From: an uncultured Lachnospiraceae bacterium
GTDB taxonomy: Bacteria; Bacillota; Clostridia; Lachnospirales; Lachnospiraceae
Direction of reading: 5' to 3'
Length of the DNA: 64,000 bases
NCBI GenBank assembly: GCA_947382625.1
Contig: CANDAG010000011.1
Span: 1-64,000 of the forward strand
Positions 4,493 through 21,209 of the stretch are shown piece after piece. The position numbers were made by a program, and so were the translations under genes. How positions within the stretch are numbered: the first letter of the stretch is position 1; each line of letters opens with the position of its first letter. Under the pieces are notes generated by a model that saw only the letters and a program-made list of their open reading frames with translations, did no database searches and was not told the DNA's origin.

Positions 4493-6217
4493 TTATTTCT
4501 CAACACCGGAAAGGATGCTGTCCAGTGTAAGATCATAGGCATCGTAGTTGCGCTGTACGATCTCAAGATAAGTGTTAAGGCCCGCGTCCTCCAGGCTCTT
4601 GATATAATCACCCCAGGTTGCATCGATGTTGCCGTCGATGATGGCCATGGCGTTATAGTTGTCGATCAGGTTGTAAAGGTTGTCTGAGATCAGAGCCATC
4701 TGTTCCTGATCCTCAGCCGAGTACCACATGTTGGGCGGGATGATGGTGTCATTTAAGTGCTTCTCAACAAAGCCTACCGTAGTCATGTCGCTGTACAGAT
4801 CTGCGGCGTCCTCCGGATATGCCACAACGGTGTCATAGTATTCCGACAGAACGATGGCCGGACGGGTAGGTGTGCAGTAGGTGCGTAGCTGGCTGAAGGT
4901 ATCGATGCCGTCTGGCATTTCCGCGTCGTGGTTCCACTGCATAACCCCGTTTTCGTCAAGAACATAGTACAAGCCGATGGAACCCCAGTTTGATTCCACA
5001 GAGCGCTGGGGATCAAAGAAGGCGTCGATGACGGAAGCGGCAAAGGCAGGATCCTCACAGGCAGTGGTGATGGCTATGCTGACAGAGTTGTGCATCTCGG
5101 AAATGTTATCCTTGATACCGTATTCACCGCCCGGTCCCTGCAGATAAGGAACTGCGGAGTACATGGCACGGCGCTCTGCGGGAACCATGTCGATGATGGA
5201 GAATACCACCATGGAGCCAACGGTGCAGTCGTCAGTATTGAGTGCGGCCTGCAGGGCAGCTTCGTCATTCAGTGCAAAGTCAGTCCAGAGAAGACCTTCA
5301 TTGTAGAGCTCGTTGAACCATTTAAGCCCTTCCTTGTAGGCATCGGTGGTGGCGGTACAGATAACGGTGCTGTCATCGTCAACTAATGCAAGACGGTCAC
5401 CGGTGTCTGCCTGTCCCCAGCAGCCGAAGAACTGACCGATGGACTGGTTGTTTCTCCAGGAGCCGATCCCTGAAGAACCGATACGGAACATAAAGGGAAT
5501 CTCATCGTTAGGATCGCCGTTGCCGTTGCAGTCGTTGTCGCGGAACGCGATCAGACATTCCTTGTACTCATCGAGAGTAGTGGGCATGTCCAGACCCAGT
5601 GCGTCCAGCCAGTCGGTATTGATGCTGAGGATACCCTGATTGCAGACAAGACCGAACATTTCCTCGATATAAGGGAAGCCCCAGATTTCACCGTCAGGTG
5701 CTGTCATAGCCGCACGGTACTCGGGATTATCTTCCAGGATGGAATACAGGTTGGGCATGAGCTCGGGAGTAATGTATTCGGTTACAGGAACGAAAATGTC
5801 CTGCCCCTGATAGTTGAGGATCGTACTTGCGGATACGCCTTCCATGAAGACATCCGGGAGATCTCCGGTGTTGATCATAAGGCTGATCTTCTCATCAGCG
5901 CCCTCGTCAGGAACCTCAATGACCTCCAGATCCACATTGCACTCTTCCTCTGTGTCGGTGATGACCTTCATCTCCGCAATAGGCATGGAAATGGCATTTT
6001 TGGTGTAAAGGACGCTGAGGGACTTTCTCTCCCCGGCATCATCCGATGTGCCTGCTGTGTCCGACGTATCCTTGGTATCGGCGGCGGAAGTCTGATCCGA
6101 TGTGTCAGTCTGGGCCGGATCGGAGTCTGCACCGGCAGAGGATTTTCCGCAGGAGCAACAGGTGGTGACCAGCAGCATGCCTGTCAGGAGAAGAGTTACG
6201 AGTTTTTTCTTTTTCAT
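4493..6217 (-). CDS. extracellular solute-binding lipoprotein, LplA type
   Basis: This is a 574-residue SBP of a carbohydrate ABC importer. The N-terminus MKKKKLVTLLLTGMLLVTTC is a lipoprotein signal with clustered cysteines (TTCCSC), followed by a Ser/Asp/Thr-rich linker to about residue 60. The mature part has the family-1 fold hallmarks (DEKISLMINTGDLPDVF, then GEIWGFPYIEE). The C-terminal region, with a HLNDTIIPP-like segment, is typical of the long LplA-type binders that work with LplB/YtcP permeases. It is the last gene of the operon and ends in a strong terminator. The partner loci suggest a fructose-containing oligosaccharide as cargo; this is inferred. Confidence 0.88.
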   Translation of the reverse strand: MKKKKLVTLLLTGMLLVTTCCSCGKSSAGADSDPAQTDTSDQTSAADTKDTSDTAGTSDDAGERKSLSVLYTKNAISMPIAEMKVITDTEEECNVDLEVIEVPDEGADEKISLMINTGDLPDVFMEGVSASTILNYQGQDIFVPVTEYITPELMPNLYSILEDNPEYRAAMTAPDGEIWGFPYIEEMFGLVCNQGILSINTDWLDALGLDMPTTLDEYKECLIAFRDNDCNGNGDPNDEIPFMFRIGSSGIGSWRNNQSIGQFFGCWGQADTGDRLALVDDDSTVICTATTDAYKEGLKWFNELYNEGLLWTDFALNDEAALQAALNTDDCTVGSMVVFSIIDMVPAERRAMYSAVPYLQGPGGEYGIKDNISEMHNSVSIAITTACEDPAFAASVIDAFFDPQRSVESNWGSIGLYYVLDENGVMQWNHDAEMPDGIDTFSQLRTYCTPTRPAIVLSEYYDTVVAYPEDAADLYSDMTTVGFVEKHLNDTIIPPNMWYSAEDQEQMALISDNLYNLIDNYNAMAIIDGNIDATWGDYIKSLEDAGLNTYLEIVQRNYDAYDLTLDSILSGVEK

Positions 6218-6285: not shown

Positions 6286-7233
6286 TCAGCCTTTGATGGA
6301 TCCCACCAGCACGCCTTTGGTGAAAAAGCGCTGCAGGAACGGGTAAATAATGAGCAGGGGCAGGGAGGATACCACGATGATCCCGTATTTGAGCTGTTCA
6401 GCCAGGCGGATCTTATCGGCCATGTTCTGCAGATCAGAGGTCATGGACGAGGACTTTACCTGATTGACGATCAGCAGGTTGCGCAGCACAAGCTGCAGGG
6501 GGAACATGTCCTCTTTGTTTAAGTAGATCAATGCATGGAAATAACCGTTCCAGTGGCCTACCGCATAGTACAGTGTAATGACCGCAAGGAGGGCCTTTGA
6601 GAGCGGGAGCGCCATCCTGAAAAAGAAACGGAAGTCGCTGCAGCCATCAATATGAGCCGCATCCAGCAGCTCCTCCGGCAGGGTGGAGGAGAAGAAGGTC
6701 CGGGCGATCATCAGGTTCCAGACGCTGAGTGCGCCGGGGAGGATCATGGCCCACAGGTTATTTTGCATGCCCAGTGAGGTATTGATGATATAGGACGGAA
6801 TCAGCCCTCCTGAAAAGAACATGGTAAAGGCAAAGAGCTTGAGCACAAGCCCCCGTCCCACAAAATCCTTGCGGGAGAGCGCATAAGCGCCGGGAATGGT
6901 AACGGCCAGGTTAATGGCAGTGCCAAGCACCATGTAGACCAGAGAGTTCCGATACCCCAGCCACAGTGACCGGTAAGCAAAAATCTTTTGATATCCTTTT
7001 GTATACCACTTGGTAGGGTAGAGCAGCAGTGTCCCGTTGTTGACCACCATTGGGTCAGTTACGGATGCCACAAGTACAAAGTAGAGGGGATACAAAACGA
7101 TGATGGCGACAATCCCCAGAATGGCATAGTTGATCAGATCGAACCAGCGGTCAGAGGACATCTGCTTTACGCGCACAGGCTTATTTTTCTTTTTTCTATT
7201 TTTATTGCTTGTTGTTTCTGTATTTTTGCCCAT
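6286..7233 (-). CDS. carbohydrate ABC transporter permease, YtcP type
   Basis: The 315-residue inner-membrane protein has a charged, Lys/Asn-rich cytoplasmic N-terminus and six predicted membrane helices. The binding-protein-dependent permease EAA loop reads EELLDAAHIDGCSDFRFFFR, which docks on the ATPase. The C-terminus (GVLVGSIKG) is characteristic of the YtcP/LplC group. It starts 12 bp after the LplB-type gene. No ATPase is encoded here, so a shared MsmK-like ATPase is expected elsewhere in the genome. Confidence 0.92.
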   Translation of the reverse strand: MGKNTETTSNKNRKKKNKPVRVKQMSSDRWFDLINYAILGIVAIIVLYPLYFVLVASVTDPMVVNNGTLLLYPTKWYTKGYQKIFAYRSLWLGYRNSLVYMVLGTAINLAVTIPGAYALSRKDFVGRGLVLKLFAFTMFFSGGLIPSYIINTSLGMQNNLWAMILPGALSVWNLMIARTFFSSTLPEELLDAAHIDGCSDFRFFFRMALPLSKALLAVITLYYAVGHWNGYFHALIYLNKEDMFPLQLVLRNLLIVNQVKSSSMTSDLQNMADKIRLAEQLKYGIIVVSSLPLLIIYPFLQRFFTKGVLVGSIKG

Positions 7234-7244
7234 TGTTTAACCTC

Positions 7245-8189
7245 CTACCACAGTGAATTTTCTGTCAGCTTGCGGCTGATATAGTTCGCCGATATGACCA
7301 GTACGAAATTGATCACCGAGTTGAACATGCCTACGGCAGCCGAAAAGCTGAAATTACCGTTTATCAGACCGATCTTATATACATAGGTGGATATGATCTC
7401 ACTGACAGGGATATTCAGTGAGTTCTGCATCAGGTAAGCCTTTTCGTAGCCTACATTGAGCAGGCTGCCCATATTCAGGATGAACATAATGACGATGGTG
7501 GGCAGGATGCATGGGAAGTCAATGTGGATCAGGCGCTGGAATTTGGATGCTCCGTCTACCATGGCGGCCTCATAGAGCGTAGGATCCACGCCGCCTAAGG
7601 CTGCAAGGTAGATGATGGCGCCCCAGCCGGCTCCCTGCCAGACGCCGGAGGCAACATATACGGTGCGGAACCATTTGGGCTCGCCCATAAAGGTGATGGC
7701 CTGCCCGCCGAAATTCTGAATGATCTTATTGATAAATCCACTGCTCGGTGTGAGAAAAATACTCAGCATGGAAACCAGTACAACGGTGGAAATAAAGTAA
7801 GGTGCGTAGGTAATTGTCTGCACAAAACGTTTATAACCCTTGGACCGTACCTGGTTGAGCATCAGCGCCAGCAGGATCGGAGCGGGAAAGCCCCAGAGCA
7901 GAGAGTAAATACTGATCTTAAGGGTGTTTTCAAGCAGGCTTTTGAAATTAGGCAGATTGATGAACTGCTTAAAATATTTGAGCCCTGCCCATGGACTTCC
8001 CAGAATGCCCAGATTTACCTTATAGTCTTTGAAGGCAATGATCGCACCGTACATTGGTGCATAGGAAAAGACTATAATACAGATGATAGCAGGCAGAGCC
8101 AGCACATATAGCTGCCAGCTGTGTCTCATCCGTTTCCAGAGCGGCTTATTCGATGGTTTGAGACCAGGTGCGGTTTTTCTTCCGATCAT
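7245..8189 (-). CDS. carbohydrate ABC transporter permease, LplB type
   Basis: The 314-residue permease is the first gene of the minus-strand transporter operon. The LYVLALPAIICIIVFSYAPM opening and the EAA loop (LYEAAMVDGASKFQRLIHID) are typical of LplB. It pairs with the YtcP-type subunit to form the translocation channel. The start at 8189 has a GGGAGG ribosome site. Its promoter and operator lie in the 387-bp divergent region shared with the ROK regulator. Confidence 0.92.
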   Translation of the reverse strand: MIGRKTAPGLKPSNKPLWKRMRHSWQLYVLALPAIICIIVFSYAPMYGAIIAFKDYKVNLGILGSPWAGLKYFKQFINLPNFKSLLENTLKISIYSLLWGFPAPILLALMLNQVRSKGYKRFVQTITYAPYFISTVVLVSMLSIFLTPSSGFINKIIQNFGGQAITFMGEPKWFRTVYVASGVWQGAGWGAIIYLAALGGVDPTLYEAAMVDGASKFQRLIHIDFPCILPTIVIMFILNMGSLLNVGYEKAYLMQNSLNIPVSEIISTYVYKIGLINGNFSFSAAVGMFNSVINFVLVISANYISRKLTENSLW

Positions 8190-8225
8190 AATGGTTCATC
8201 CTCCCTTTTTTGAATTTCATCAACC

Positions 8226-8251
8226 GAATTAATTAACGGCGTAATTTAAAT
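8226..8251. promoter_or_regulatory. operator-like site, transporter side
   Basis: On the minus strand this AT-rich sequence reads ATTTAAATTA-CGCC-GTTAATTAATTC. It closely resembles the site at 8398-8424 when both are read along their own transcripts. It sits directly downstream of the -10 box of the transporter promoter. A ROK repressor bound here would block the start of transcription. Confidence 0.6.
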
Positions 8252-8260
8252 GTTGAAGAA

Positions 8261-8391: not shown

Positions 8392-8397
8392 GGACTC

Positions 8398-8424
8398 GAA
8401 TTTAATTTCGCCATAATTTAATTG
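8398..8424. promoter_or_regulatory. operator-like site, regulator side
   Basis: AATTTAATTT-CGCC-ATAATTTAATTG begins about 7 bp after the -10 box of the ROK promoter. It matches the minus-strand site at 8251-8226 around a shared central CGCC. Twin sites at equivalent positions of divergent promoters suggest one regulator, most simply the ROK protein itself, controls both. Confidence 0.6.
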
Positions 8425-8576
8425 CGGGTAAGAAAGGGTGATAAGGTACTGTTGGTTGGGAACGATCCGGATGCGTGTTATAATAAGACAGAATTTTATT
8501 ATGCTGTTATAAAATGAAGAATACCGCTCCGGTTTCGGGTTACGGGCGGGCCAAAAGGAAGAAGAGGAAAATATCG

Positions 8577-9788
8577 ATGAAACAGGGGTCTATTAATCAG
8601 AATGTTCAAAAGGAAAACAATATTTCCGTTGTGCTCCGCGCACTGCGCGCTGATGCGGAATGTACACGCATCCGGCTTACGGGAGCCACCGGACTTACCC
8701 AGCCTGCGATTACCAAGATCATTGGGCAGCTCATAGAGTGGGGGACGGTATCAGAGCTGGAAGGAGTAGGTAACGGAATTGGCCGTAAGGCTGCCCGGCT
8801 GCATCTGAATGCCCAGCGTTACCGGGTGGCTGCAGTGCGGATCAATCGTACCTATATAAATGCTGCTGTTTATGACATGGCTGGCAGGCTGTATGATATG
8901 GATTCCAGGGAGATCAGTTCCGAAGAGGGGGCGGAGCCTACTATGGAACGACTTATCGGTATGCTGAGCCGCCTGATCGCCCGTGCGGAGGTTCCGGTGT
9001 TGAGTATCGGAGTTGCTGTTCCGGGACCTTATAATTATTTTGCCGGGCGCATTTCGCTGATGAGCGGTTTCCCGGGATGGAGTGATATTGATATCAGAGC
9101 CGAGCTGGAGGCGGCTTTTGGGCTGCCTGTTTTTGTGGATCAGGATGCCAACTGCGGAGCGTTGGCTGAAATGTGGCATTCCGGATACGAGGGAAATTCC
9201 GATATGCTTTTTATCTGCGCAGACCGGGGGATCGGCGCCGGGCTGATTCTGGAATCATCGGTTTATCGAGGACGGGACGGTTTCGCAGGTGAATTCGGTC
9301 ATGCCAGCATCAATATATTCGGTCCCCGCTGTGAATGCGGCAACCGGGGCTGTCTCGAGCTGTACGGCTCTACGGTGGCGCTTGAGAATCTTTACCGCCA
9401 GGAGGCCTTTAACCCCATGGAGCCCGATTCTCTGCCGGAGAACACAGCGGCAGGGGAGATCCTGGCTCTTGTGCGGGAGGGGGATGTGGCTGCCCGCCGG
9501 GCCTACAGCAAGACAGTGTCTTATCTGTGCTTCGGAGTTGTAGGCATGATCAACACATTTAATCCGGCTACAGTGGTGTTTGCCGACAAGATCACTGAGG
9601 GCGGAAATCTGTTTCTCCAGGTGGCTGACCGTACCTTCAGGGAGTACCTGATGCCGGAGATTTATGACAGACTTCAGGTCAGAGTCTGTACACTGGAGGG
9701 GGATCCCATGCTGATGGGGGCCAGTGTCCTGGCTTATGACCAGATGCTGCAGGCACCGTCAGTCTATTTCCGCGGAGAAGAAGGCTGA
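8577..9788 (+). CDS. ROK-family transcriptional regulator
   Basis: The protein has 403 residues from the preferred start MKQGSINQNVQKENN, preceded by a GAAGAGGAAA ribosome site; an in-frame ATG at 8514 has none. Residues about 15-70 form a MarR-like winged helix (TQPAITKIIGQLIEWG). The rest is a sugar-kinase-like ROK domain with the DANCGALAE segment, a GIGAGLI phosphate-type loop and the zinc motif CECGNRGCLE. Such XylR/NagC-type proteins respond to a sugar or sugar phosphate. Its position between the divergent transporter and the catabolic genes, with operator-like sites on both sides, makes it the likely local repressor. Confidence 0.92.
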   Translation: MKQGSINQNVQKENNISVVLRALRADAECTRIRLTGATGLTQPAITKIIGQLIEWGTVSELEGVGNGIGRKAARLHLNAQRYRVAAVRINRTYINAAVYDMAGRLYDMDSREISSEEGAEPTMERLIGMLSRLIARAEVPVLSIGVAVPGPYNYFAGRISLMSGFPGWSDIDIRAELEAAFGLPVFVDQDANCGALAEMWHSGYEGNSDMLFICADRGIGAGLILESSVYRGRDGFAGEFGHASINIFGPRCECGNRGCLELYGSTVALENLYRQEAFNPMEPDSLPENTAAGEILALVREGDVAARRAYSKTVSYLCFGVVGMINTFNPATVVFADKITEGGNLFLQVADRTFREYLMPEIYDRLQVRVCTLEGDPMLMGASVLAYDQMLQAPSVYFRGEEG

Positions 9789-9875: not shown

Positions 9876-11642
9876 ATGATTATGAAGGCTTTGACAACGT
9901 TTACAGGATGTAAATCTCCGTGGGAACTGGATTTTGTGCTTGAAAAAGAGGGGACAGGGATTTTGGTGGAGGCCCGTTCGGGAGAGACATCGGCGTTTAA
10001 GGTCTCCCGTGACAAAATGCTTTGTGTGGAGATCAGCACACAGTGGAACCGGATGGGGCAAAGCAGAGAGAAGGATGCCATGCTTTGTTTCACATTGACT
10101 TCCCCTAAATGCAGCGGACAGATCCGTATCGTCTGGTATGGTTTTTCCTTCCGGCTGTATGTGGATGGGCAGCTTGAGGATGAGGAGTGGCCTTTAGGAG
10201 AGCCTGTTGGAGAAGTATGGGAGATTTCTGCCGTGGATGAGGTTTCGGATCTGGTATGCTCTGCTGCGGGAGCCTGTGAGGAGGAGCCGGAAACCGTCTT
10301 TACGGGGGCCTTCCAGAATTTTGTGCTTCCCGGGCATAACACCGGTGTAGGGGATTGCATGCCTTTTGCGAGAGATGGGCGTTATTGTCTGTATTATCTC
10401 TTTGACCGGCGCTCTCACGGGAGCAAGCGCGGGCTGGGAGCGCACCAGTGGGCTCAGGTCTCCTCTGATGATCTGAAGACCTGGACGGTTCATCCCATGG
10501 CGGTAGGCATTACCGAACAATGGGAGGGGTCTATCTGTACCGGCTCTCTGATCCGGAAGGATGACAGGATCTATGCATTCTATGCTGTGCGGATGTCTGA
10601 CGGAAGTCCTGCGCAGATGACCTGGGCAGTGAGCAGGGATGGGGTACATTTCGAAAAATCCGGGAAATATTTTTCACTGACAGAGCCTTATGAGCCGGTT
10701 TCCGCCCGTGATCCCATGGTCTTTTGGGGAGCGGATGAACAGTATCATATGCTGGTCACCACATCCCTTATAAACGAAGGGCGATTCGGCGGCTGCCTTG
10801 CCCACCTGACCAGCACCGACTTAGAGGAGTGGAAGCAGCAGGGACCCTTTATCGTGCCGGGCTATTCAGATCAGCCGGAATGCAGTGATTATTTTGAATG
10901 GAACGGATGGTACTATCTGGTATTTTCCAACTTTGCCATTGCCCGCTACCGTATGTCCCGCAGCCCCTTCGGCCCCTGGATCCGTCCGGAAAATGATCTG
11001 CTGGATGCCCTTGAGGTACAGGTACCGAAGACTGCCCCGTTTGGCAGGCGGCGCTTTTCTACCGGATTTTTGGCGCGCCGTCCCAGGGGATATGCAGGCA
11101 ATGCCGTGACTCATGAGCTGTTTCAGCGTCCTGACGGCACATTGGGGATCTGTCAGATAGAGGAGATCCTTCCTGCAGTAAAGGACAGGGTACGTCCCGG
11201 GGATATTTTTCTGGATGCCGGACAAAACCGTGCCTCTGCCGCGCTGCCTGCAATGGAAGGGGATTTCCGCCTGAGGGCAGTACTGGAGACGGGAAAGGCA
11301 AATGGACTGGCAGGGATGCTTCTGACACTGAGTACCGAGGATGGAGAGCGGCGCGGAAGCTATCGGATAGAAATGGACCCTGCCGCAGGGACGGTGGTCA
11401 TTGTACGGCCGGGAGAGGACTTTGACCGGGGATGCGGCCGTGGTCTGCTTAAGGGGATTGACCTTTCCGGAAGCATCCGGATCGATCTTCTGGTCAATGA
11501 TGATATCCTGGATCTGATGCTTGCGGACGGAAGGGGTATGACCATGCGGTTGGATGCGTCTGTCAGGGGCGGTTCATCCGTGGAGTTTTATGTTATGGCA
11601 GATACCCTTGCGGTATCAGATATTGAGCTTGCGACCATGTGA
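9876..11642 (+). CDS. GH32-like beta-propeller protein, variant active site
   Basis: This 588-residue protein has no signal peptide, so it is presumably cytoplasmic. Residues 1-140 are beta-rich. Residues about 150-450 form a five-bladed-propeller region with GH32/GH43 hallmarks: ARDP (R278-D279) and the acid/base Glu in PECSD (E335). In place of the usual WMNDPNG nucleophile block there is GVGDCMPF with D160. Residues about 455-588 resemble the GH32 C-terminal beta-sandwich. It could hydrolyse a fructosyl or related linkage, or be a lectin-like variant. It follows the ROK gene after 87 bp and precedes a canonical GH32 gene by 12 bp. Confidence 0.8.
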   Translation: MIMKALTTFTGCKSPWELDFVLEKEGTGILVEARSGETSAFKVSRDKMLCVEISTQWNRMGQSREKDAMLCFTLTSPKCSGQIRIVWYGFSFRLYVDGQLEDEEWPLGEPVGEVWEISAVDEVSDLVCSAAGACEEEPETVFTGAFQNFVLPGHNTGVGDCMPFARDGRYCLYYLFDRRSHGSKRGLGAHQWAQVSSDDLKTWTVHPMAVGITEQWEGSICTGSLIRKDDRIYAFYAVRMSDGSPAQMTWAVSRDGVHFEKSGKYFSLTEPYEPVSARDPMVFWGADEQYHMLVTTSLINEGRFGGCLAHLTSTDLEEWKQQGPFIVPGYSDQPECSDYFEWNGWYYLVFSNFAIARYRMSRSPFGPWIRPENDLLDALEVQVPKTAPFGRRRFSTGFLARRPRGYAGNAVTHELFQRPDGTLGICQIEEILPAVKDRVRPGDIFLDAGQNRASAALPAMEGDFRLRAVLETGKANGLAGMLLTLSTEDGERRGSYRIEMDPAAGTVVIVRPGEDFDRGCGRGLLKGIDLSGSIRIDLLVNDDILDLMLADGRGMTMRLDASVRGGSSVEFYVMADTLAVSDIELATM

Positions 11643-11654
11643 AAGGAGTATCCC

Positions 11655-13289
11655 ATGCAGACCCGCAGTATAAAAATAGAAAAGGGATGGCTGCATCTGC
11701 CCATTGGGCGGGATGCAGACCGATATTATGTAAAATTTGAAGCACAAGGAAAGCAGATCGGCGAATTTTATCTGGGGCTTGCGGCAGATGGACCGGATTT
11801 CTGGTGCGGTATGGAATTGGAAAAGTACATTGGACAGACCATTACCATGACTATGGATGCCTGCGACGGCAATCCCCCGGAGGGCTTACTTGAGGGAATT
11901 GTGGAAGGGGGTGCAATGGATGAGGATAATCCTCTTTATCCGGATCTGTACAGAGAAGAGCTGCGCCCGCAATACCATTTTTCCTCCCGGAGGGGCTGGT
12001 TGAATGACCCTAACGGACTTGTCTTTGACGGCAAAAGGTATCATATGTATTACCAGCACAATCCTTATGGCATTACCCATGGCGGTGTGAACATCCACTG
12101 GGGTCATGCGGTGAGTCCGGACGGGATTCATTGGAAGGAATATCCGGACGGGATCCGCCCCTGGGTGAGCAGCTGCCATATTGCATCGGGAAGCTGTATC
12201 ATTGACTATGAAGGAAAGGCCGGCTATGGGAAGGGAGCCATTATCGCTGCCTTTACCCATCTGGCCTCCGGTAATTACCGTTCGGATGATAAGCTTCCCT
12301 CCGAGGGGCAGTTCCTTGCCTATAGTGTAGATGAAGGCGTCTCCTTTACCCTTTTTCCGGAGTGCCCCCTCATCCCTGCAAGGGATGGCATGGATTGGAG
12401 GGATCCCCGTATTTTTCATGATCCCGAGGGCGGCTTTGGGATTGCGGTTTATGAGACAGATGAGAACGGCAATTGTGTGGCGTTTTATCACAGCGATGAC
12501 CTTCACCGCTGGACATTGACCGGCCGGGGGGATGAGCTGTATGAGTGCCCGGATCTGTTTCGTCTTACCCCTGAGGGAGGCGGTGCCCCTAAATGGGTGC
12601 TTTACGGGGCAGACGGCATGTATCGGGTAGGGGAATTTTCTGATGGTGTGTTCGCACAGGAGGGTGAAAGATTTCCGTTGGATTACGGTACCTGTACCTA
12701 TGCCGGCCAGACCTGGTCAGGCAGGGATGATACCTGCGGGCGGATGCACATCAGCTGGCTGCGGGATGACAAGCTTTCCTGGCAGGATACTACCTGCTAT
12801 CCGGATATGCCATTTTCCCAGCAGATGACGGTTCCCTGTCTTCTGAAGCTGGTCAATACGCTGCAAGGATATCGCGTTGCGCGTACACCCATACCGGCTT
12901 TGGACCTGTTGCACGAAGGTGAGCCGACGATACATAAGGTCACCCAAACCACCGGAACAGCGCTTTCTCTGCCGCTGCAGAGCGATACCCGTCTGACCAT
13001 TATAAGCGACGGACCGCTGAAGATTTGCGCCGACAAGGGGAGCTTTGTATACGATCCGGCAACCGGAAGGGTGATCTTTGACGGGGGACGGCGGGAATTT
13101 ACATTAACCAAAAAGGGCGCTCTGGAGCTGCGGGTACTCTGGGATACCATGTCCTGTGAATTTTTCCTGCAGGAGGAGATTTCCGCAAGCTACGGGCAGG
13201 ACATGCGCGGCAAAAAGCTGGAGATAAATTGCGAAACCGGATTTTCGGCGGAAGCAGAGGTATATGGGATGAAGAGCATCTGGCACTGA
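11655..13289 (+). CDS. glycoside hydrolase family 32 (beta-fructosidase type)
   Basis: This 544-residue cytoplasmic enzyme has all three GH32 catalytic elements: nucleophile D118 in WLNDPNG, the stabiliser R249-D250-P251, and the acid/base E297 in YECPD. An extra N-terminal beta domain (about 1-100) precedes the propeller, and a C-terminal beta-sandwich (about 420-544) follows. GH32 enzymes release fructose from sucrose, inulin or levan-type oligosaccharides; the lack of a signal peptide suggests it acts on imported oligosaccharide or its phosphate. It is the second gene of the operon that leads to the GRE pair. Confidence 0.92.
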   Translation: MQTRSIKIEKGWLHLPIGRDADRYYVKFEAQGKQIGEFYLGLAADGPDFWCGMELEKYIGQTITMTMDACDGNPPEGLLEGIVEGGAMDEDNPLYPDLYREELRPQYHFSSRRGWLNDPNGLVFDGKRYHMYYQHNPYGITHGGVNIHWGHAVSPDGIHWKEYPDGIRPWVSSCHIASGSCIIDYEGKAGYGKGAIIAAFTHLASGNYRSDDKLPSEGQFLAYSVDEGVSFTLFPECPLIPARDGMDWRDPRIFHDPEGGFGIAVYETDENGNCVAFYHSDDLHRWTLTGRGDELYECPDLFRLTPEGGGAPKWVLYGADGMYRVGEFSDGVFAQEGERFPLDYGTCTYAGQTWSGRDDTCGRMHISWLRDDKLSWQDTTCYPDMPFSQQMTVPCLLKLVNTLQGYRVARTPIPALDLLHEGEPTIHKVTQTTGTALSLPLQSDTRLTIISDGPLKICADKGSFVYDPATGRVIFDGGRREFTLTKKGALELRVLWDTMSCEFFLQEEISASYGQDMRGKKLEINCETGFSAEAEVYGMKSIWH

Positions 13290-13307
13290 GATTTGGAGGC
13301 TTTTGAT

Positions 13308-14180
13308 ATGAAGATACGGATATTTCAAAAAGGCTTTAACTACTCTCAGGACGGAAGAGGAAATCGTCTGGTGCTTCATCTGCAGGGGTGTAATATGCAT
13401 TGTCCCTGGTGTTCTAACCCGGAGGGCATGCCGCTGGAGGGAGCGCTTCTAACCCAAAAGGAATGGCTGGATGAAAGCTGCTGTCCTAAAGGAGCTGTCA
13501 GAGAGGGCCTGCTTTGCAGGCAGATGTGTATTTCCTGCAAAGAAAAACCATGCGTGACCAAACGAAGGCAGAGAGGGATCCGTCTGTCCTGCCAGGAATA
13601 TTCTGTAGATGAGATCGTGAAGGAATGTGAAGCGGCGAAGCCTGTGTTTTTTGAAGGGGGCGGTGTTACGCTTACCGGCGGTGAGATCAGTATGCAGTTT
13701 GCCGGGGTAAGAGAGCTGCTTGAGAAACTTGGAAAAAAGGGAATCCACAGGGCCATTGAATGTAATGGAAGCCATCCGGGGATGGAGGAGCTTATCCCCT
13801 GTGTAGAGCAATGGATTATGGATGTGAAGCACTATGATGAGGAGGTTCACAGAGAGTGGATCGGAGTATCTAATGAATGGACCCTCAGAAATCTGGAAAG
13901 GATTTCCGCAAAGCATCCTGATGTGCTGATCAGGGTTCCGCTGATCCCCGGCTTTAATGATAGCAGGGAGGATGCGGAAGGGTTTGGACAACTGTTCCGT
14001 GAAAAGCTCCATGGCGAAAATACGAGAGTTGAATTCCTTCTTTATCACGAGTATGGGAGAGACAAGTGGGCGCAGTGCGGAATGGAATATAAGATGAAGC
14101 CGGGACATCTGCCGCCCGGGATCAGAGAATTTTTTGAAGACAGAATGAAGGCATACGGGATCGTCTGTATGAGGACCTGA
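13308..14180 (+). CDS. glycyl-radical enzyme activating protein (radical SAM)
   Basis: The 290-residue protein begins MKIRIFQKGFNYSQDGRGNR. The radical SAM cluster motif is C28-x3-C32-x2-C35 (GCNMHCPWCSNPEG). An inserted Cys-rich region (about residues 48-80, including CISCKEKPC) resembles the accessory Fe-S insert of GRE activases. The SAM-binding TGGE motif follows. The ATG at 13308 has GGAGG 8 bp upstream; a TTG 15 bp earlier is ignored. It should install the glycyl radical on the enzyme encoded next, under anaerobic conditions. Confidence 0.93.
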   Translation: MKIRIFQKGFNYSQDGRGNRLVLHLQGCNMHCPWCSNPEGMPLEGALLTQKEWLDESCCPKGAVREGLLCRQMCISCKEKPCVTKRRQRGIRLSCQEYSVDEIVKECEAAKPVFFEGGGVTLTGGEISMQFAGVRELLEKLGKKGIHRAIECNGSHPGMEELIPCVEQWIMDVKHYDEEVHREWIGVSNEWTLRNLERISAKHPDVLIRVPLIPGFNDSREDAEGFGQLFREKLHGENTRVEFLLYHEYGRDKWAQCGMEYKMKPGHLPPGIREFFEDRMKAYGIVCMRT

Positions 14181-14214
14181 TAATGCCGGTCAGGGAAAGG
14201 GACAGGTCATTGAG

Positions 14215-16608
14215 ATGAGAATTGAAGAGATTTATTCGGCAAAGGAGATTACGGAGCTTGCAAAATCCCGTTTTCAGGAAGAGCGGAAGCTGGATCATCT
14301 GGAAGGATGGTTTCTTGCAAGAGAAATTGCCATGGAGTGTGATGAGAAATTTAAGGATGAGCCGGATTGCATACGGATCGGGAAGACTTTGGTGGAGGTG
14401 ATGAGGCAGATCCCTCTGACATTAGGGGACTATCATATTTTTGCAGGAACTCAGGACGACGCCTTTGCCCGTTCCTATGCCCTGATCAATCCGGCATTTC
14501 AGGTCAGCTCCTTTAGCGGATATTGTGATCCGGCCACGGTTTTTGGTGATATTGAGCCTGTCGGGGATATCACCAGGGAGAGGATTGCCCATGTAAAGGA
14601 GTATTATGCGCAAAATGATTTTGCCAAAGCATTGACAGCTGCTTATGCTCCTGTGGAGAGGTATACACAGGAGGCGGTATTTTTTCTGGAGCAGGTGACC
14701 GGACACGTGATCCCGGATGTAAGGGAATATCTTGCAAATGGGGCGCTCTCTGTCCGGGAGGAGATTGGCCGCAGACAGGAGGAGACCAGGGATCAGGAAA
14801 AGAAGATCTATTATGAGGCAATGAAATACAGCATAGATGCCCTGCTGGTTCTGGCAGAGCGATATCGTCTGCTTGCTCTGGAGAAGGCGGCAGGCACGGA
14901 AGGAAAAGAGAAGGAACGCTTTGCATTGATGGCAGATACGCTGGGCAGAGTCCCGGCCGGGGGAGCCTCTGATCTGTATGAGGCCATTCAGTCCTTCCTG
15001 CTGGTATGGCAGACCATGTGTCTGGAGCAAACGCCCAATCCCTTCGCCTTTTCTGTGGGAAATGCGGATCGTATTTTTGAACCCTACAGGAGCAGGAAGG
15101 ATACGGACAGGGAAATGACAGCGGCATTGTTTAAGCATTTGCTGGTATTTTATAATGTGGCGGACAGAAGCTGGGCAATCTCCCAGAATCTGATCATCGG
15201 CGGACGTGATCAGGAGGGAAACGATCTGACAAACGATACCTCTTATGCCATGTTTGATGCCTATTATGACATGAATCTTCCGCAGCCGATCCTTTCGGTA
15301 AAGCTTCACAAAAACACACCGGACAGACTGTATGAGGAAATGGGAAGATTCTTTTTTACACCGGGAGCGCTGACCCCGTCCTTGTTTAATGATGATGCCC
15401 TCTTTGAAATATTAAAGGCACGCGGTGTAGGGGAGGAGGATCTGCCGGATTATTCCGTGGCAGGCTGTCAGGAGCCGTTGATCATGGGGAAGGATAACGG
15501 AAATACAACGAACAGCTGGCTTAACCTGCCTAAGGTATTGGAATTAGTACTTCAGGGCGGCAGATCGGAGATTACAGGAACACAGATCGGAAGGACCAGG
15601 GAAGAGATGGGGTATGGAAATGCCCTGGAGCTGCTTGGACATATCCGGGAGGCCTTTTACCGGGAATTGGATTTTTATATAGACCGGATGACAGATGCGG
15701 CTAATAATGCATCCCGCGCCATCGGCATGTATCAGGTGCCTTTTCTCAGCACCATGATGGGTGGGGCTAAATCCGGTATTGATATGAGAGATACAGAACG
15801 TCAGGGGACGAAATACAACGGAAGCGGCTGCCTGATCCATGGATCAAGCGTGGTGGCAGATTCCTTTATTGCCATAGATACGCTGCTGAAGGAACGGCCG
15901 GAGGATGCGGAGAGAATGCTGGAGGCTCTTCGGACAAATTTTGAGAATGATCCGGAAATGCATCAATATCTGTGCGCCTGTGATAAGTTCGGAAATAATC
16001 TCGAGACAGTAGACAAAGAGGCCGCAGAGGTAGTGGCGCGGGCGGCGGATATGGTTGCATCCAGAAAAAATTATCTGGGTAATTCTTTCCGGCCGGATTT
16101 TGCATCCCCGTCCACACATCTGATGTATGGGTATTGGGTGGGAGCCACTCCCGACGGAAGAAAGGCCAGGGAAATGCTCAATTATGGGGTGGATCCGCTT
16201 TTTGGAGATGCGTCCGGCGGGATTGGAATGAGAATGCTTTCCAACCGGCAGCTTCCCTTCGAAAAAATGACCGGCGGATGCGCTTCCCACTTTGGGATCG
16301 ATCCGGGATATTTTAAAGGGAAAACCTTTGAGGAAAAGGGATTGGAATTTAAGACAAAAATCTTTACACCTTTGTTCTTTAACTGTTATGATAAGAGAAA
16401 TGTTTCGCCGTTTTATCTTTATGTCAATGTAACTACCCAGGAAATGCTGCGTAAGGTGCTGGAGGAACCCAAAAAATATGCGCCTGGCGGAGTTTACATC
16501 GTCAGGATCCATGGAACCTTTGTAAATTTTCTGGATCTTTCACCGGAGATCCAGGAGGATATCATTAAACGTCTGGATCCGGCATCTACACACATGAGCG
16601 CATCCTAA
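14215..16608 (+). CDS. glycyl radical enzyme, pyruvate formate-lyase superfamily
   Basis: The enzyme has 797 residues, the usual GRE size. The thiyl cysteine is C418 in VAGCQEP, with general-base-type Glu420. There is no second adjacent Cys, so it is not a pyruvate formate-lyase but a dehydratase/eliminase-type GRE. The radical glycine is G767, 30 residues from the end, in RIHGTF; the usual motif is RVxGY/F with a small residue before Gly, so His and Thr here are atypical. It is encoded with its activase, an FGGY kinase, an isomerase and GH32 enzymes, so the substrate is probably a sugar or polyol. The exact reaction is unknown. Confidence 0.9.
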   Translation: MRIEEIYSAKEITELAKSRFQEERKLDHLEGWFLAREIAMECDEKFKDEPDCIRIGKTLVEVMRQIPLTLGDYHIFAGTQDDAFARSYALINPAFQVSSFSGYCDPATVFGDIEPVGDITRERIAHVKEYYAQNDFAKALTAAYAPVERYTQEAVFFLEQVTGHVIPDVREYLANGALSVREEIGRRQEETRDQEKKIYYEAMKYSIDALLVLAERYRLLALEKAAGTEGKEKERFALMADTLGRVPAGGASDLYEAIQSFLLVWQTMCLEQTPNPFAFSVGNADRIFEPYRSRKDTDREMTAALFKHLLVFYNVADRSWAISQNLIIGGRDQEGNDLTNDTSYAMFDAYYDMNLPQPILSVKLHKNTPDRLYEEMGRFFFTPGALTPSLFNDDALFEILKARGVGEEDLPDYSVAGCQEPLIMGKDNGNTTNSWLNLPKVLELVLQGGRSEITGTQIGRTREEMGYGNALELLGHIREAFYRELDFYIDRMTDAANNASRAIGMYQVPFLSTMMGGAKSGIDMRDTERQGTKYNGSGCLIHGSSVVADSFIAIDTLLKERPEDAERMLEALRTNFENDPEMHQYLCACDKFGNNLETVDKEAAEVVARAADMVASRKNYLGNSFRPDFASPSTHLMYGYWVGATPDGRKAREMLNYGVDPLFGDASGGIGMRMLSNRQLPFEKMTGGCASHFGIDPGYFKGKTFEEKGLEFKTKIFTPLFFNCYDKRNVSPFYLYVNVTTQEMLRKVLEEPKKYAPGGVYIVRIHGTFVNFLDLSPEIQEDIIKRLDPASTHMSAS

Positions 16609-16674
16609 AGGGAGGATCAGATGGATGCGGTCCACCGGTTCACTGGATGTGACTGTTGTAAGGAGTGACGTTTT

Positions 16675-18018
16675 ATGAATGTTATGGGAATTGATATTGG
16701 AACTACAAGCATCAGTATGGTGCTGATCGATGAAAAAACGCGGATTCTTACGGCCAGTAAGACCATAGAGCACCAGTCCTTTCTGGAGGGAACGGATTCC
16801 GGTGAGGGCTGTTCAAAGGAAAGGGTGCAGGATCCGGAACGGATCTGGCGGCTTGTAAGGAAGGGAATGGAGGAGCTCACAGACGCATATGGCCTGCCCT
16901 CCGGGATCGGACTGACCGGGCAGATGCACGGGATGCTCTATGTGGACGGGGGTGGAAATGCTGTCAGCCCCTTATATACGTGGCAGGATGGAAGCGGAGA
17001 CCGTCCCTTAAAGGGCGGAAGGAGCAGTGTCCGGCTTTTGAGTGAAAAGGTTGGCACGGTTTTTGCGGGTTACGGACTGGCGACTCATTTTTATCTTCAA
17101 AACACAGGAAAAATACCCCGGGAGGCCAAAAAGATGACCACGGTCAGCGACTATATTGCCATGAAGCTGTGCGGGTATACGGAGCCTGTGATCGGTGTGG
17201 ATATGGCGGCAAGCTGGGGGTGCTTTGACCTGCAGAAAAAAGAATTCCTTTATGAGGCTCTCGAAGCGGCAGGGGTGGATATTTCCTATCTGCCTCAGGT
17301 AAGAAAGGATCATTTCATTGCGGGAAGGACAAGGGACGGCATTCCTGTCACAGGGTCTGTAGGGGATAATCAGGCCAGTGTGTTTGGTTCTGTCAGCAGT
17401 CTTTCGGATACCGTTTTGCTCAACGTGGGAACCGGAAGCCAGATTTCTTTTACCTCGGAGGAGTATGTGGCCTGTCAGGGAAGCATAGAGCTTCGTCCCT
17501 GCACCAGGGACTGCTATCTTCTGGTGGGTGCGTCTTTGTGCGGCGGAAGGGCCTATGCCATGCTGGAGCAGTTCTACCGGGAGATCACAGGAAACCGGGA
17601 AGAACCCTATTATCAGAAAATGCTGGAACAGGCCCGGGCCTTTGTAGAAGAATACGGGATCGATGCGGTGTGGGATGTGAGGACCACCTTTTCGGGAACC
17701 AGAAATAATCCCGGCGAAAAGGGAAGCATCGCAGGGATCAGCGGGGAAAACTTCCGTCCGGGAGCTATGACGGCAGGGGTGATCCTGGGAATCCTGAAAG
17801 AGCTGTATGAACAATATGAGGTGATGTGCCGTCTTACAGGAAAAAAGGCAAAGCATCTGGCGGGATCAGGCAATGGTATTCGCCAGAATTCACTGATGCG
17901 GCAGCTTGCGGAAGAGATGTTCGGGATGAAGATGGAAATTCCTGACTGCAAGGAAGAGGCGGCCTGCGGCGCCGCTTTGTGCGCGCTTGAGCAATTGCCC
18001 CGGGGAATGGCAGTATAA
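16675..18018 (+). CDS. FGGY-family carbohydrate kinase, sedoheptulokinase-like
   Basis: The 447-residue kinase has the ASKHA elements: phosphate-1 loop GIDIGTTSISMVL, the substrate segment GLTGQMHGMLYVD, the catalytic-Asp region SVGDNQASVFG, the nucleotide loop NVGTGSQISF and the adenosine segment HLAGSGNGIRQNSLMRQ. The MHG plus SPLYTWQD pattern resembles sedoheptulokinases more than xylulokinases, but substrate assignment from sequence is weak. It should phosphorylate the sugar product of the pathway. It follows the GRE by 66 bp and ends directly at a 36-bp repeat pair. Confidence 0.85.
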   Translation: MNVMGIDIGTTSISMVLIDEKTRILTASKTIEHQSFLEGTDSGEGCSKERVQDPERIWRLVRKGMEELTDAYGLPSGIGLTGQMHGMLYVDGGGNAVSPLYTWQDGSGDRPLKGGRSSVRLLSEKVGTVFAGYGLATHFYLQNTGKIPREAKKMTTVSDYIAMKLCGYTEPVIGVDMAASWGCFDLQKKEFLYEALEAAGVDISYLPQVRKDHFIAGRTRDGIPVTGSVGDNQASVFGSVSSLSDTVLLNVGTGSQISFTSEEYVACQGSIELRPCTRDCYLLVGASLCGGRAYAMLEQFYREITGNREEPYYQKMLEQARAFVEEYGIDAVWDVRTTFSGTRNNPGEKGSIAGISGENFRPGAMTAGVILGILKELYEQYEVMCRLTGKKAKHLAGSGNGIRQNSLMRQLAEEMFGMKMEIPDCKEEAACGAALCALEQLPRGMAV

Positions 18019-18019
18019 C

Positions 18020-18092
18020 ATCAAACGCTGGCCCGCGGGGCGAGCCGGCTTATCGATCAAACGTTGCCGCGCTCGAAGAGCCGGTTTGTTGG
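18020..18092 (-). repeat. 36-bp palindromic repeat, two tandem units
   Basis: TCAAACG starts at 18021 and 18057, again exactly 36 bp apart. The first unit keeps the stem (GCTGG/GCCGGC-like arms with a CGC/GCG inner stem). The second is more degenerate. It begins two bases after the kinase stop codon and ends before the isomerase ribosome site. Confidence 0.8.
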
Positions 18093-18115
18093 ATGAAAGA
18101 ATGAGGGTTGATTTT

Positions 18116-18994
18116 ATGAAGCTGGTAACACAGACAGAAGCTTTGGCGGAAGCCTTCGGAGAGAAGGAATGTATCATGATCCTGGCAGAGGCAGGATTCG
18201 ATGCGGCAGATGTGTCCTTTTTCGGCATGGAAGAGGGAAAAGGGATCTGGTGCGAAGAAAACTGGAGAGAATATGCGCTTCTTCTTAAGGAGACAGGAGA
18301 GGAGGCGGGGCTTATTTTTACACAGGCCCATGCGCCCTTTCCCTCCTCTCATGGATCGGAGCCTTATGACACTAATATAAGGAAGTGGATCATCCGCTCC
18401 ATGGAGGCGGCTTCCCTTATGGGTGTCAGAGATATTGTTGTCCATCCGGTCCAGCATCTGGACTACAGGAAGAACAGGGAGCGGCTTTTTGAGATGAATC
18501 TTGCTTTTTACCGCAGCCTGATCCCTTACTGCGAGGAATTTAATATCCGGGTCTGCGCAGAGAATATGTGGCAGTATGACAGCCGGCGGCAGTATATTGT
18601 GGACAGCGTCTGCTCCTGCCCGGAGGAGTTTAACCGTATGCTGGACGAGGTGGGAAGCCCCTGGATCGTGGGCTGTCTTGACCTGGGGCACTGCGCACTT
18701 GTGGGCACGGAGCCTGCGGATTTTATCCGCGCAATGGGAAAAGAGAGATTGCAGGCGCTCCATGTTCATGATGTTGACTATGTGAGTGACTGCCATACCA
18801 TGCCGTTTCTGGAGAGCCTTGACTGGAAAGCCATTACCCGGGCCCTTGGACAGATCGGCTATGAGGGTAATCTGACCTTTGAGGCGGATGAGTTTTTAAA
18901 GAAAATGCCCAGGGAGCTGATGCCTGAGGCCGCAAGGCTGCTGGCGAAGACGGGGCGCTATTTGATCAAATGCATTGCAGAGCAGGCGGAATAG
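18116..18994 (+). CDS. sugar phosphate isomerase/epimerase, TIM-barrel (AP endonuclease 2 fold)
   Basis: The 292-residue protein has metal-site residues typical of the xylose-isomerase-like TIM barrel: VHPVQH, CAENMWQY (Glu), CLDLGHCAL (Asp/His), HVHDVDY and a C-terminal FEADEF (Glu). Members isomerise or epimerise sugars or inositol derivatives with a divalent metal. The open frame extends upstream to 17987, but that part is kinase 3' end and 36-bp repeats; 18116 has GAGGG upstream. Last gene of the GRE operon, closed by a strong terminator. Confidence 0.88.
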   Translation: MKLVTQTEALAEAFGEKECIMILAEAGFDAADVSFFGMEEGKGIWCEENWREYALLLKETGEEAGLIFTQAHAPFPSSHGSEPYDTNIRKWIIRSMEAASLMGVRDIVVHPVQHLDYRKNRERLFEMNLAFYRSLIPYCEEFNIRVCAENMWQYDSRRQYIVDSVCSCPEEFNRMLDEVGSPWIVGCLDLGHCALVGTEPADFIRAMGKERLQALHVHDVDYVSDCHTMPFLESLDWKAITRALGQIGYEGNLTFEADEFLKKMPRELMPEAARLLAKTGRYLIKCIAEQAE

Positions 18995-19041
18995 ATCAGT
19001 CAGGACTTTACACTTGGTGCAGAGTCCTGACTGATTTTTTT
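18995..19041 (+). terminator. terminator of the GRE sugar operon
   Basis: ATCAGTCAGGACT (18995-19007) and AGTCCTGACTGAT (19023-19035) form a 13-bp stem followed by seven Ts. Its upper part (GGACTTTACACTTGGTGC...AGTCC) resembles a hairpin inside the element at 43627-43787. Confidence 0.95.
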
Positions 19042-19079
19042 CAGATGGGGAAATTGCCCGAAAAATATGCAAAATCCAC

Positions 19080-19110
19080 TCTGGTATTTTCCAAAAGGAT
19101 ATGATATAAT
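19080..19110 (+). promoter_or_regulatory. promoter of tig
   Basis: A perfect TATAAT (19105-19110) has an extended -10 TG one base upstream (TGATATAAT). No good -35 box is needed with the extended element; TGGTAT lies at the right distance. It lies 77 bp before the trigger factor start. Confidence 0.7.
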
Positions 19111-19186
19111 GCTACAATGACTGCGAGCATGTCCGGAATTCACATGAATTAGCATTAAAAGCATAGATTAAGGAGGATGTACCAGG

Positions 19187-20473
19187 ATGAGCGTACAGGT
19201 AGAGAAACTGGAAAAAAACATGGCAAAGCTGACCATCGAGGTTCCCGCTGAAGAAGTGGAAAAGGCGCTTAATAGCGCATTCATGAAAAATAAGAACAGG
19301 ATCAATGTCCCCGGATTCCGTAAAGGGAAGGTTCCCCGTCAGATGATAGAGAAGATGTACGGACCGGAAATTTTTTATGAGGATGCGGTGAATGAAATGC
19401 TTCCCGATGCCTACGAGAAGGCAGTGGAGGAATGCGGAGAGGATATCGTTTCTTCTCCCGAGATCGATGTTGTACAGATCAAAAAGGGCGAGCCCTTTAT
19501 CTTTACGGCAGAGGTTGCTCTTAAGCCGGAGGTTAAGCTCGGCAAGTATAAGGGGATCAAGTTAGAGAAGTTTGACCGCACCGTAACGGACGAAGAGGTT
19601 GACGAAGAGATCAACAGAGAAAGAGAGAGAAACGCAAGAAATGTGGAAGTAACGGACAGGCCTGTAAAGGACGGGGATATGACCGTTCTGGATTTTGAGG
19701 GCTTTGTGGACGGTGTGGCCTTTGAGGGCGGCAAGGGAGAGAATTACGACCTGACCATTGGGTCCGGCGCGTTCATCCCCGGCTTTGAGGAGCAGCTTGT
19801 AGGAGCCGAGATCGACAAGGAAGTGGAGGTTAACGTAACCTTCCCTGAGGATTATCAGGCAGAGGAGCTTAAGGGCAAAGCGGCCGTATTCAAATGTACC
19901 GTGAAGGAGATCAAGGAGAAAGAGCTTCCTGAGTTAGACGATGAATTTGCATCAGAAGTTTCTGAATTTGACACATTAGAGGAATATAAGGCGGACGTTA
20001 AGGCTAAAATTACAGAGAGAAAAGAAAAAGAGGTCAATAACGCCAAAGAGGAGCAGGTCATCGAGGCCATTATCAATGACTCTGATATGGAGATCCCTGA
20101 GGCTATGCTGCTGACACAGCAGAGGCAGATGGTAGATGAATTTGCACAGAGGATCCAGATGCAGGGTCTTACCATCGATCAGTATTATCAGATGACCGGC
20201 AATACCCGTGACCGTATGATCGAGCAGGTGAAGCCTCAGGCTGAGAGACGGATCAAGACAAGACTGGTATTAGAGGCCATCGTAAAGGCTGAAAATATCA
20301 CCGCTACCGAGGAAGAGTTTGAAGAAGAATTAAAGGTGATCGGGGAGGCTTACCAGATCGAGTTAGACCAGGTAAAGGAAACCCTTCCTGAAAGCAGCAT
20401 GGAGCAGATCAAAGAGGATATTGCAGTGCGTAAGGCTGCTGAGCTTGCAAGAGACAGCGCCATCGAGGAATAG
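19187..20473 (+). CDS. tig: trigger factor (ribosome-associated chaperone, peptidyl-prolyl isomerase)
   Basis: The protein has 428 residues, normal for Tig. The N-terminal ribosome-binding domain carries the signature GFRKGKVPRQMIEKMYG. The FKBP-type PPIase domain (about 150-245) includes FEGFVDGVAFEGGKGENYDL and FIPGFEEQLVGAE. The C-terminal helical chaperone arms follow. It binds the ribosome at the tunnel exit and holds nascent chains. AAGGAGG precedes the ATG. It has its own promoter and terminator and is followed by clpP and clpX, the standard order. Confidence 0.97.
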   Translation: MSVQVEKLEKNMAKLTIEVPAEEVEKALNSAFMKNKNRINVPGFRKGKVPRQMIEKMYGPEIFYEDAVNEMLPDAYEKAVEECGEDIVSSPEIDVVQIKKGEPFIFTAEVALKPEVKLGKYKGIKLEKFDRTVTDEEVDEEINRERERNARNVEVTDRPVKDGDMTVLDFEGFVDGVAFEGGKGENYDLTIGSGAFIPGFEEQLVGAEIDKEVEVNVTFPEDYQAEELKGKAAVFKCTVKEIKEKELPELDDEFASEVSEFDTLEEYKADVKAKITERKEKEVNNAKEEQVIEAIINDSDMEIPEAMLLTQQRQMVDEFAQRIQMQGLTIDQYYQMTGNTRDRMIEQVKPQAERRIKTRLVLEAIVKAENITATEEEFEEELKVIGEAYQIELDQVKETLPESSMEQIKEDIAVRKAAELARDSAIEE

Positions 20474-20523
20474 AAGATTATTTGAGAGTGGTCAACGGAT
20501 CACGTTCAGAGAGATATTCATAC

Positions 20524-20552
20524 GGTCTGCGCATGCAATGCGCAGACCTGTT
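20524..20552 (+). terminator. terminator after tig
   Basis: GGTCTGCGCA (20524-20533) and TGCGCAGACC (20539-20548) form a 10-bp stem followed by TGTTTG. The T-run is short, so read-through into clpP is likely. Confidence 0.7.
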
Positions 20553-20567
20553 TGAATCAAGGAGTCT

Positions 20568-20598
20568 GTAATTATTCAGCCTTCGGCTGAACAGTTGC
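20568..20598 (+). repeat. TTCG-capped hairpin in the clpP leader
   Basis: GTAATT-A-TTCAGCC, then TTC, then GGCTGAA-C-AGTTGC folds into one long hairpin whose tip C(TTCG)G is the very stable UUCG loop in RNA. It closely resembles the right-end hairpin of the element at 43757-43787, so it is probably a dispersed module rather than clpP-specific. It lies 27 bases before the clpP start. Confidence 0.6.
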
Positions 20599-20624
20599 AG
20601 GAGTTTCAGATAAGGAGGATCAGT

Positions 20625-21209
20625 ATGAGTTTAGTGCCTTATGTCATAGAACAGACCAGCAGGGGCGAGCGTTCCTACGACATTTATTCAAGACTTTTAA
20701 AGGAAAGGATCATATTTTTAGGGGAAGAGGTAAATGATGTTACGGCAAGCCTGATCGTGGCACAGATGCTGTTTTTGGAGGCTGAGGATCCGGAGAAGGA
20801 TATCCAGTTTTATATCAACAGCCCCGGCGGCAGCGTGACGGCCGGCATGGCCATCTACGATACCATGCAGTACATCAAGTGCGACGTGTCCACCAATTGT
20901 ATGGGCATGGCTGCCAGCATGGGTGCGTTTTTGCTGGCAGGCGGCACTAAGGGCAAGAGACTGGCGCTTCCCAATGCGGAGATCATGATCCATCAGCCCT
21001 CCGGCGGCAGCCAGGGGCAGGCTACAGAGATTGAGATTGCCGCCAAGCATATTTTGCGTACCAAGGAAAAACTGAACAGGATCCTTGCGGAGAATACCGG
21101 CAAGGATTATGATGTGATCGCTGCAGATACGGAGAGAGATAACTGGATGACGGCCGAGGAAGCTTTAGAGTACGGCCTGATCGACAGGATTTATCAAAAA
21201 CGTGTATAA
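20625..21209 (+). CDS. clpP: ATP-dependent Clp protease proteolytic subunit
   Basis: The protein has 194 residues from [20 protein letters not shown]. The serine-protease triad is S98 (GMAASMGAF), H123 (MIHQPSGG) and D172 (ERDNWM). It forms the double heptameric proteolytic chamber that works with ClpX, encoded 21 bp downstream. The start at 20625 has AAGGAGGA; the open frame extends 10 codons upstream without a ribosome site. Confidence 0.97.

Follow-up and report, generated by a model that had tools for sequence, protein, structure and literature searches.

A 64,000-nucleotide stretch of an uncultured Lachnospiraceae bacterium (contig CANDAG010000011.1 of GenBank assembly GCA_947382625.1, positions 1 to 64,000; hereafter the window) encodes a glycyl radical enzyme (GRE) that, judged by alignment and tree, represents a sharply bounded, uncharacterised subfamily with a scattered distribution among Clostridia; the unit that recurs around this enzyme is formed by a radical-SAM activase, the GRE, and an FGGY carbohydrate kinase. 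The protein belongs to the glycyl radical enzymes (PF02901) by its domain score, by the alignment of Cys418 and Gly767 with their counterparts in 12 other GREs, and by the adjacent activase gene 34 nt upstream. An earlier, sequence-only reading of the window had described one active cysteine accompanied by Glu420, and this description is exact, as Cys418, Glu420, and Gly767 are invariant in a 41-row alignment of relatives with a mean column identity of 73%. The cysteine stands alone in the motif AGCQEP in all 41 rows, so the adjacent Cys-Cys pair that marks pyruvate formate-lyase (PFL) is absent.

A FastTree phylogeny, in which long branches were flagged, was built from 103 GREs comprising 21 others and 82 family rows, the latter drawn from the window and the 81 related loci L006 and L025 to L104 (with one duplicate, the GRE rows of L006 and L066 being identical). 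The family rows grouped in a single clade whose stem branch is long (1.79 changes per site, support 100). The glycyl loop reads RIHGT in 82 of 82 family rows and in none of the 21 other GREs, 20 of which have RVxGY or RVxGF and one RICGL; the short signature of the clade is RIHGT together with GCQEPLIMGKDNGNTTN. Comparison of the pocket by sequence alignment of 6 family rows against 12 other GREs revealed that the family has GNAD where all 12 others have GRxD, a lysine on the following strand where 11 of the 12 have arginine, and KDNGNTTN as the stretch after the cysteine. The window GRE scored 237.6 bits with TIGR01774 (PFL2-3/glycerol dehydratase; cut-off 678.2) and 38 to 177 bits with the NCBIfam models for HypD, HpsG, HpfG, CutC, indoleacetate decarboxylase, PFL, and HPAD, whose cut-offs range from 994 to 1150. 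These cut-offs and the tree rule out membership in a named GRE subfamily; the enzyme falls in no characterised subfamily tested, and the clustering that the sequence-only reading had named as evidence against itself did not appear.

A close relative of the GRE was found in 1 of 60 related genomes (65% identity, order-level kin) and in none of 35 genomes of the same genus. Where matches exceeded 260 residues, the other GREs in the 60 genomes reached no more than 30% identity; shorter C-terminal stretches gave 34% to 40%. Of 391 genomes sampled across the class, 14, among them that of the window, carried the GRE at E 1e-100 or better, and identity in the other carriers was 54% to 69%. The best 80 of 203 relatives from a scan of public genomes showed 59% to 83% identity; the cultured Blautia schinkii DSM 10518 carries one of these loci, L032. 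For locus L088 (59%), the source is a metagenome-assembled genome with the label Propionivibrio (Pseudomonadota), where either transfer or a binning error is possible.

Neighbours of the GRE were counted by tblastn on all 81 loci, within 6 kb for the activase, the kinase, and less constant partners, and by separate gene-cluster counts on 79 of the 81; many of these loci end at contig edges. The activase was present on the same strand in 76 of the 81 loci and an FGGY kinase, likewise on the same strand, in 66; of the 58 loci whose flanks were long enough on either side, 52 had the kinase. The kinase that the sequence-only reading had placed in the operon is thus conserved beside the GRE in relatives. 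Two distantly related FGGY types occur in this place, the window's type in 49 loci and a XylB-like type in 14, and none passed both thresholds. Some loci of the first type (e.g., L027) hold an additional XylB-type kinase, so the either-or relation applies to the two types as defined and not to all FGGY proteins. The exchange of one kinase type for another at the same place suggests that the kinase step belongs to the pathway. Likeness to XylB xylulokinases (TIGR01312) is seen in the type-2 kinases of L046 and L048, which lie beside related GREs and passed that cut-off; the window's own kinase differs, with 104.3 bits against a cut-off of 380.25, and the other type-1 kinases scanned (L025, L089, L006, and L091) also failed it.

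The window activase carries a CX3CX2C motif and a Cys-rich insert, and an alternative start at an ATG five codons further in is possible. Inserts after this motif could be parsed in 65 of the 70 activases of L025 to L104 and the window, and were long (80 to 99 aa, 4 to 8 Cys) in 34 and short (30 to 59 aa, 0 to 2 Cys) in 31. The activases of this one GRE clade thus come in two architectures, and the window's is of the long form. In L039, L040, and L042 the usual place of the activase is empty and an aldo-keto reductase gene lies directly upstream of the GRE. In L069 a second, distant GRE homologue (18592 to 20856; 21% identical) adjoins another FGGY kinase, roughly 6 kb downstream from the first GRE, and in five loci (L048, at 16092 to 19257, L056, L057, L058, and L065) the anaerobic ribonucleotide reductase NrdD and its NrdG activase are encoded downstream of the GRE in the same direction.

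The predicted structure of the window GRE (predicted local distance difference test [pLDDT] 83, predicted template modelling score [pTM] 0.88) has the GRE barrel, and propanediol dehydratase, glycerol dehydratase, and PflD tied on top of the structural ranking of this model. The B12-independent glycerol and 1,2-propanediol dehydratases (1r8w and 5i2a) also gave the best sequence match in the PDB (193 bits to 1r8w) and share with the window GRE the Cys-x-Glu pattern and the GH of the GHV loop, but they are about 25% identical to it. By alignment, His281, Ser282, and Asp447 of glycerol dehydratase, which we take to be active-site residues, correspond to Phe277, Ala278, and Thr432, and, unlike for these dehydratases, no aldehyde dehydrogenase or microcompartment genes were seen in the window's neighbourhood.

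Anhydroglycolysis in Escherichia coli includes steps of fructose-6-phosphate aldolase (FSA) and GldA. The role of YbiW and PflD in it was reportedly described by Ma et al. in JACS in 2024. According to passages of PMC12441222, both enzymes ring-open 1,5-anhydro-glucitol-/-mannitol-6-phosphate to give 1-deoxyfructose-6-phosphate after uptake by the phosphotransferase system (PTS). This is the closest documented sugar precedent, and a kinase would replace the PTS here. Both cases would involve a GRE acting on sugar derivatives; an FSA gene adjoins ybiW and lies within 6 kb of the GRE in 8 of the 81 related loci, a GldA-type dehydrogenase gene lies near one, and the modelled fold of the window GRE is tied with that of PflD. 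The window GRE differs in its separate clade and in its loop RIHGT instead of RVAGY, and an ATP-binding cassette (ABC) importer and an FGGY kinase occur in the window where pflD has PTS genes, which leads us to propose elimination, phosphorylation, and aldol cleavage.

Our best explanation, offered tentatively, is that the GRE is an eliminase that converts a polyol or anhydro-sugar to a deoxyketose, which an FGGY kinase and then an aldolase would process. We infer the eliminase chemistry, the order of steps, and the substrate class by analogy, since GREs with the same Cys and Glu eliminate after hydrogen abstraction beside a leaving group. The activase would form a glycyl radical on Gly767, the radical would move to Cys418, and Cys418 would abstract a hydrogen from the substrate, a polyol or anhydro-sugar resembling a monosaccharide, at a carbon that bears a hydroxyl group, with Glu420 aiding the departure of the neighbouring C-O bond before the hydrogen is returned. 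The product would be a deoxyketose, perhaps a 1-deoxyketose, that the FGGY kinase would phosphorylate and an aldolase (of the FSA or DeoC type where present) would split, the deoxygenated half acting as an electron sink. Dehydration before phosphorylation, the order in the sequence-only reading, is plausible. In the window, the glycoside carrying the substrate would enter through the ROK-controlled importer and be cleaved by the two GH32-type hydrolases.

Several findings weigh against this proposal. YbiW and PflD lie outside the 82-row clade; the active-site loops around Cys418 and Gly767 have low to middling confidence in the model; and 15 of the 81 loci have no FGGY kinase within 6 kb, although 9 of the 15 are short of flank. 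Its main loose ends are a ManA-like enzyme and the undetected FSA. The ManA-like isomerase, found within 6 kb of the GRE in 28 of 81 loci, keeps four residues aligned with Gln97, His99, Glu134, and His255 of E. coli ManA, presumably the zinc ligands, and does not fit a 1-deoxyketose. FSA was not detected in the window's genome, which is 88% complete, and was not enriched in carriers (6 of 14, versus 68 of 148 sampled genomes, a sample that includes some carriers); FSA as an obligate partner is ruled out by these two results.

The reverse order of steps, in which the FGGY kinase would first phosphorylate the polyol or anhydro-sugar on import and the GRE would then use the resulting phosphate ester in the manner of YbiW and PflD, appears unlikely. 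Open-chain ketoses or polyols are the usual substrates of FGGY kinases, a preference that a ring-opened product matches better, and neither YbiW nor PflD is a near relative of the GRE clade. The conserved kinase beside the GRE, the equal structural distance of the GRE to PflD and to the diol dehydratases, and the phosphorylated substrates of YbiW and PflD (passages of PMC12441222; titles of PDB entries 8id7 and 8id0) nevertheless speak for this order. The pocket motifs of the family are unlike those of all GREs compared, so the analogy with diol dehydratases is weak, and the nearby-scoring GREs include the C-N lyases CutC and HplG. Both observations are consistent with another GRE chemistry (decarboxylation, C-C or C-N cleavage, or isomerisation) or a non-carbohydrate substrate, the kinase then performing a different step in the same diet-linked operon. 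We consider this quite unlikely given the kinase linkage in 66 of 81 loci, the sugar transporters and hydrolases in several of them, and a Cys-x-Glu pattern as in eliminases.

It is very unlikely that the GRE acts specifically on fructose or a fructose-linked polyol freed by the GH32 enzymes, as the sequence-only reading had suggested from the GH32 genes in the same run. The second GH32 gene has homologues near 3 of the 81 related GREs (L036, L038, and L044, the homologues in L038 and L044 being confirmed as GH32 type), whereas the other 78 have none nearby. The first GH32-type gene has no homologue near any of the 81 and matched 1 of 98 relatives at E 1e-40, namely the window's own genome. 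Other hydrolases are encoded elsewhere, including GH116 (L030), GH38 (L084 and three further loci of the same cluster), and a GH78-like enzyme (L099), in a sample of 20 scanned from about 110 neighbour proteins of at least 480 aa. The rarity of GH32 near related GREs rules out a fructan-specific pathway as a general rule and indicates that, by gene neighbourhood, GH32 is a local accessory and not a general part of the pathway.

The TIM-barrel protein that the sequence-only reading had listed as an isomerase in the operon is most likely the product of a resident gene. It has a 78% identical orthologue in a genome of the same genus (G012), located directly before tig (trigger factor) as in the window, and the 19 kb read there contained no GRE, kinase, or GH32; two distant permeases (33% to 35%) lie about 9 kb upstream. 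Orthologues in G020 and G473 are likewise without GRE, kinase, or GH32, and no homologue was found near the 81 related GREs. DNA similarity between the window and G012 starts at position 18116, with a single matching 61-nt stretch upstream, in a permease gene, and the start of the TIM-barrel gene is therefore more likely the ATG at 18113. The orthologue in G012, the lack of linkage, and the similarity boundary together rule out the TIM barrel as the pathway isomerase. Since the similarity stops at the start of this gene, the importer-GRE-kinase block was probably acquired upstream of it; the G+C content of the block is not diagnostic for acquisition. What stands of the sequence-only reading is a single-Cys GRE, outside all characterised subfamilies tested, in a sugar operon with a conserved kinase, while the fructose-linked substrate as a rule and the TIM-barrel isomerase fall away.

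Partners less constant than the kinase include a GntR-LacI-type regulator within 6 kb of the GRE in 34 of 81 loci and DeoC near two. D-psicose 3-epimerase passed its cut-off in L051 and has homologues in five loci; a GHL6/GH42-like enzyme (L095) and DUF5696 (L069) are further neighbours. In L095, L099, and L104 there is a 4-nt overlap between the ManA-like gene and the kinase gene. A ManA-like partner was rejected for the window's own genome, where the match is distant (32% over residues 10 to 211). In nine loci (L072, L077 to L079, L081, L087, L091, L101, and L102) a protein of 216 to 252 aa (cluster 8) is encoded 3′ of the ManA-like gene, and its representative had no Pfam or NCBIfam match. 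Importer genes unrelated or distant to those of the window lie near some relatives, and the window's solute-binding protein has no homologue near the 81 related GREs at E 1e-8. Housekeeping neighbours (Tex, carbamoyl-phosphate synthase, elongation factor G, FtsK, tRNA synthetase, and a chloride channel) were dropped from the argument.

The run of genes from the two GH32-type hydrolases through activase, GRE, and FGGY kinase to the TIM barrel is present as open reading frames (ORFs) throughout, as are the divergent importer and the ROK regulator (Table 1), in agreement with the sequence-only reading. The gene order is no chance ORF effect, and the GH32 and TIM-barrel parts are not conserved jointly with the GRE. 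Gaps of 12, 3, 34, and 66 nt separate the successive genes from the first GH32-type gene through the kinase. The second GH32 protein contains WLNDPNG, RDP, and ECPD in its translation, which we take to be GH32 motifs, and scored 129 bits with the NCBIfam BfrA model, far below the cut-off of 900.

Table 1. Coordinates of the GRE locus and its flanking features in the window.
Feature	Position	Strand	Evidence or remark
Solute-binding protein (SBP), ABC importer	4493..6217	-	SBP_bac_1 51.7 bits
Permease, ABC importer	6286..7233	-	BPD_transp_1 37.2 bits
Permease, ABC importer	7245..8189	-	BPD_transp_1 62.9 bits
Candidate operator, copy 1	8225..8252	+	28-nt direct repeat
Candidate operator, copy 2	8397..8424	+	28-nt direct repeat
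ROK-family regulator	8514..9788	+	ROK 170.9 bits; N-terminal extension; NagC-like full-length match
Divergent GH32-type protein	9876..11642	+	Glyco_hydro_32N 71 bits
GH32 beta-fructosidase-like hydrolase	11655..13289	+	Glyco_hydro_32N 160 bits
Radical-SAM GRE activase	13293..14180	+	NCBIfam TIGR02494 185.9 bits, cut-off 174.35
Glycyl radical enzyme (GRE)	14215..16608	+	PFL-like 339.5 bits, Pfam cut-off 24.3
FGGY carbohydrate kinase, type 1	16675..18018	+	FGGY_N 71.6 bits, FGGY_C 48.3 bits
AP_endonuc_2 TIM-barrel protein	18113..18994 (longer ORF: 17987..18994)	+	Probably resident gene, outside pathway
Terminator-like stem-loop and T-run	18993..19037	+	-28 kcal/mol, z -7.5, 0/200 shuffles equally low

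The region between the importer and the ROK gene contains the two best promoter-like sites, one on each strand, with 11 and 10 of 12 matches. In total, 13 promoter-like and 13 terminator-like sites were found, versus 10.7 and 10.4 in shuffled sequence. The sequence-only reading had named separate regulation of the GRE and GH32 genes as evidence against it; this did not appear, the sites inside the run being near the shuffled level, but another 10 of 12 promoter-like match inside the GRE gene (16363 to 16392) makes separate expression of the kinase from an internal promoter possible. The divergent promoter region also contains a 28-nt repeat in two copies that are 75% identical, a candidate ROK operator, although two-copy repeats can arise by chance; a pattern derived from both copies found no third copy in the window.

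Many abundant gut GREs are described as being without known function in passages of PMC11574389, and no paper pairing the GRE described here with an FGGY kinase was found in the open-licence literature. The recurring kinase makes the substrate class of this GRE testable. It is possible, if somewhat doubtful, that a new GRE class, with an altered glycyl loop and pocket, deoxygenates or ring-opens an unphosphorylated sugar-like substrate that one of at least two interchangeable FGGY kinases then phosphorylates, amounting to a PTS-independent fermentative radical glycolysis fed by species-varied glycosidases in gut Clostridia. If a dietary polyol or anhydro-sugar is indeed deoxygenated in this way, the pathway would provide these bacteria with an added anaerobic electron sink and would be a possible source of propanediol-type products.
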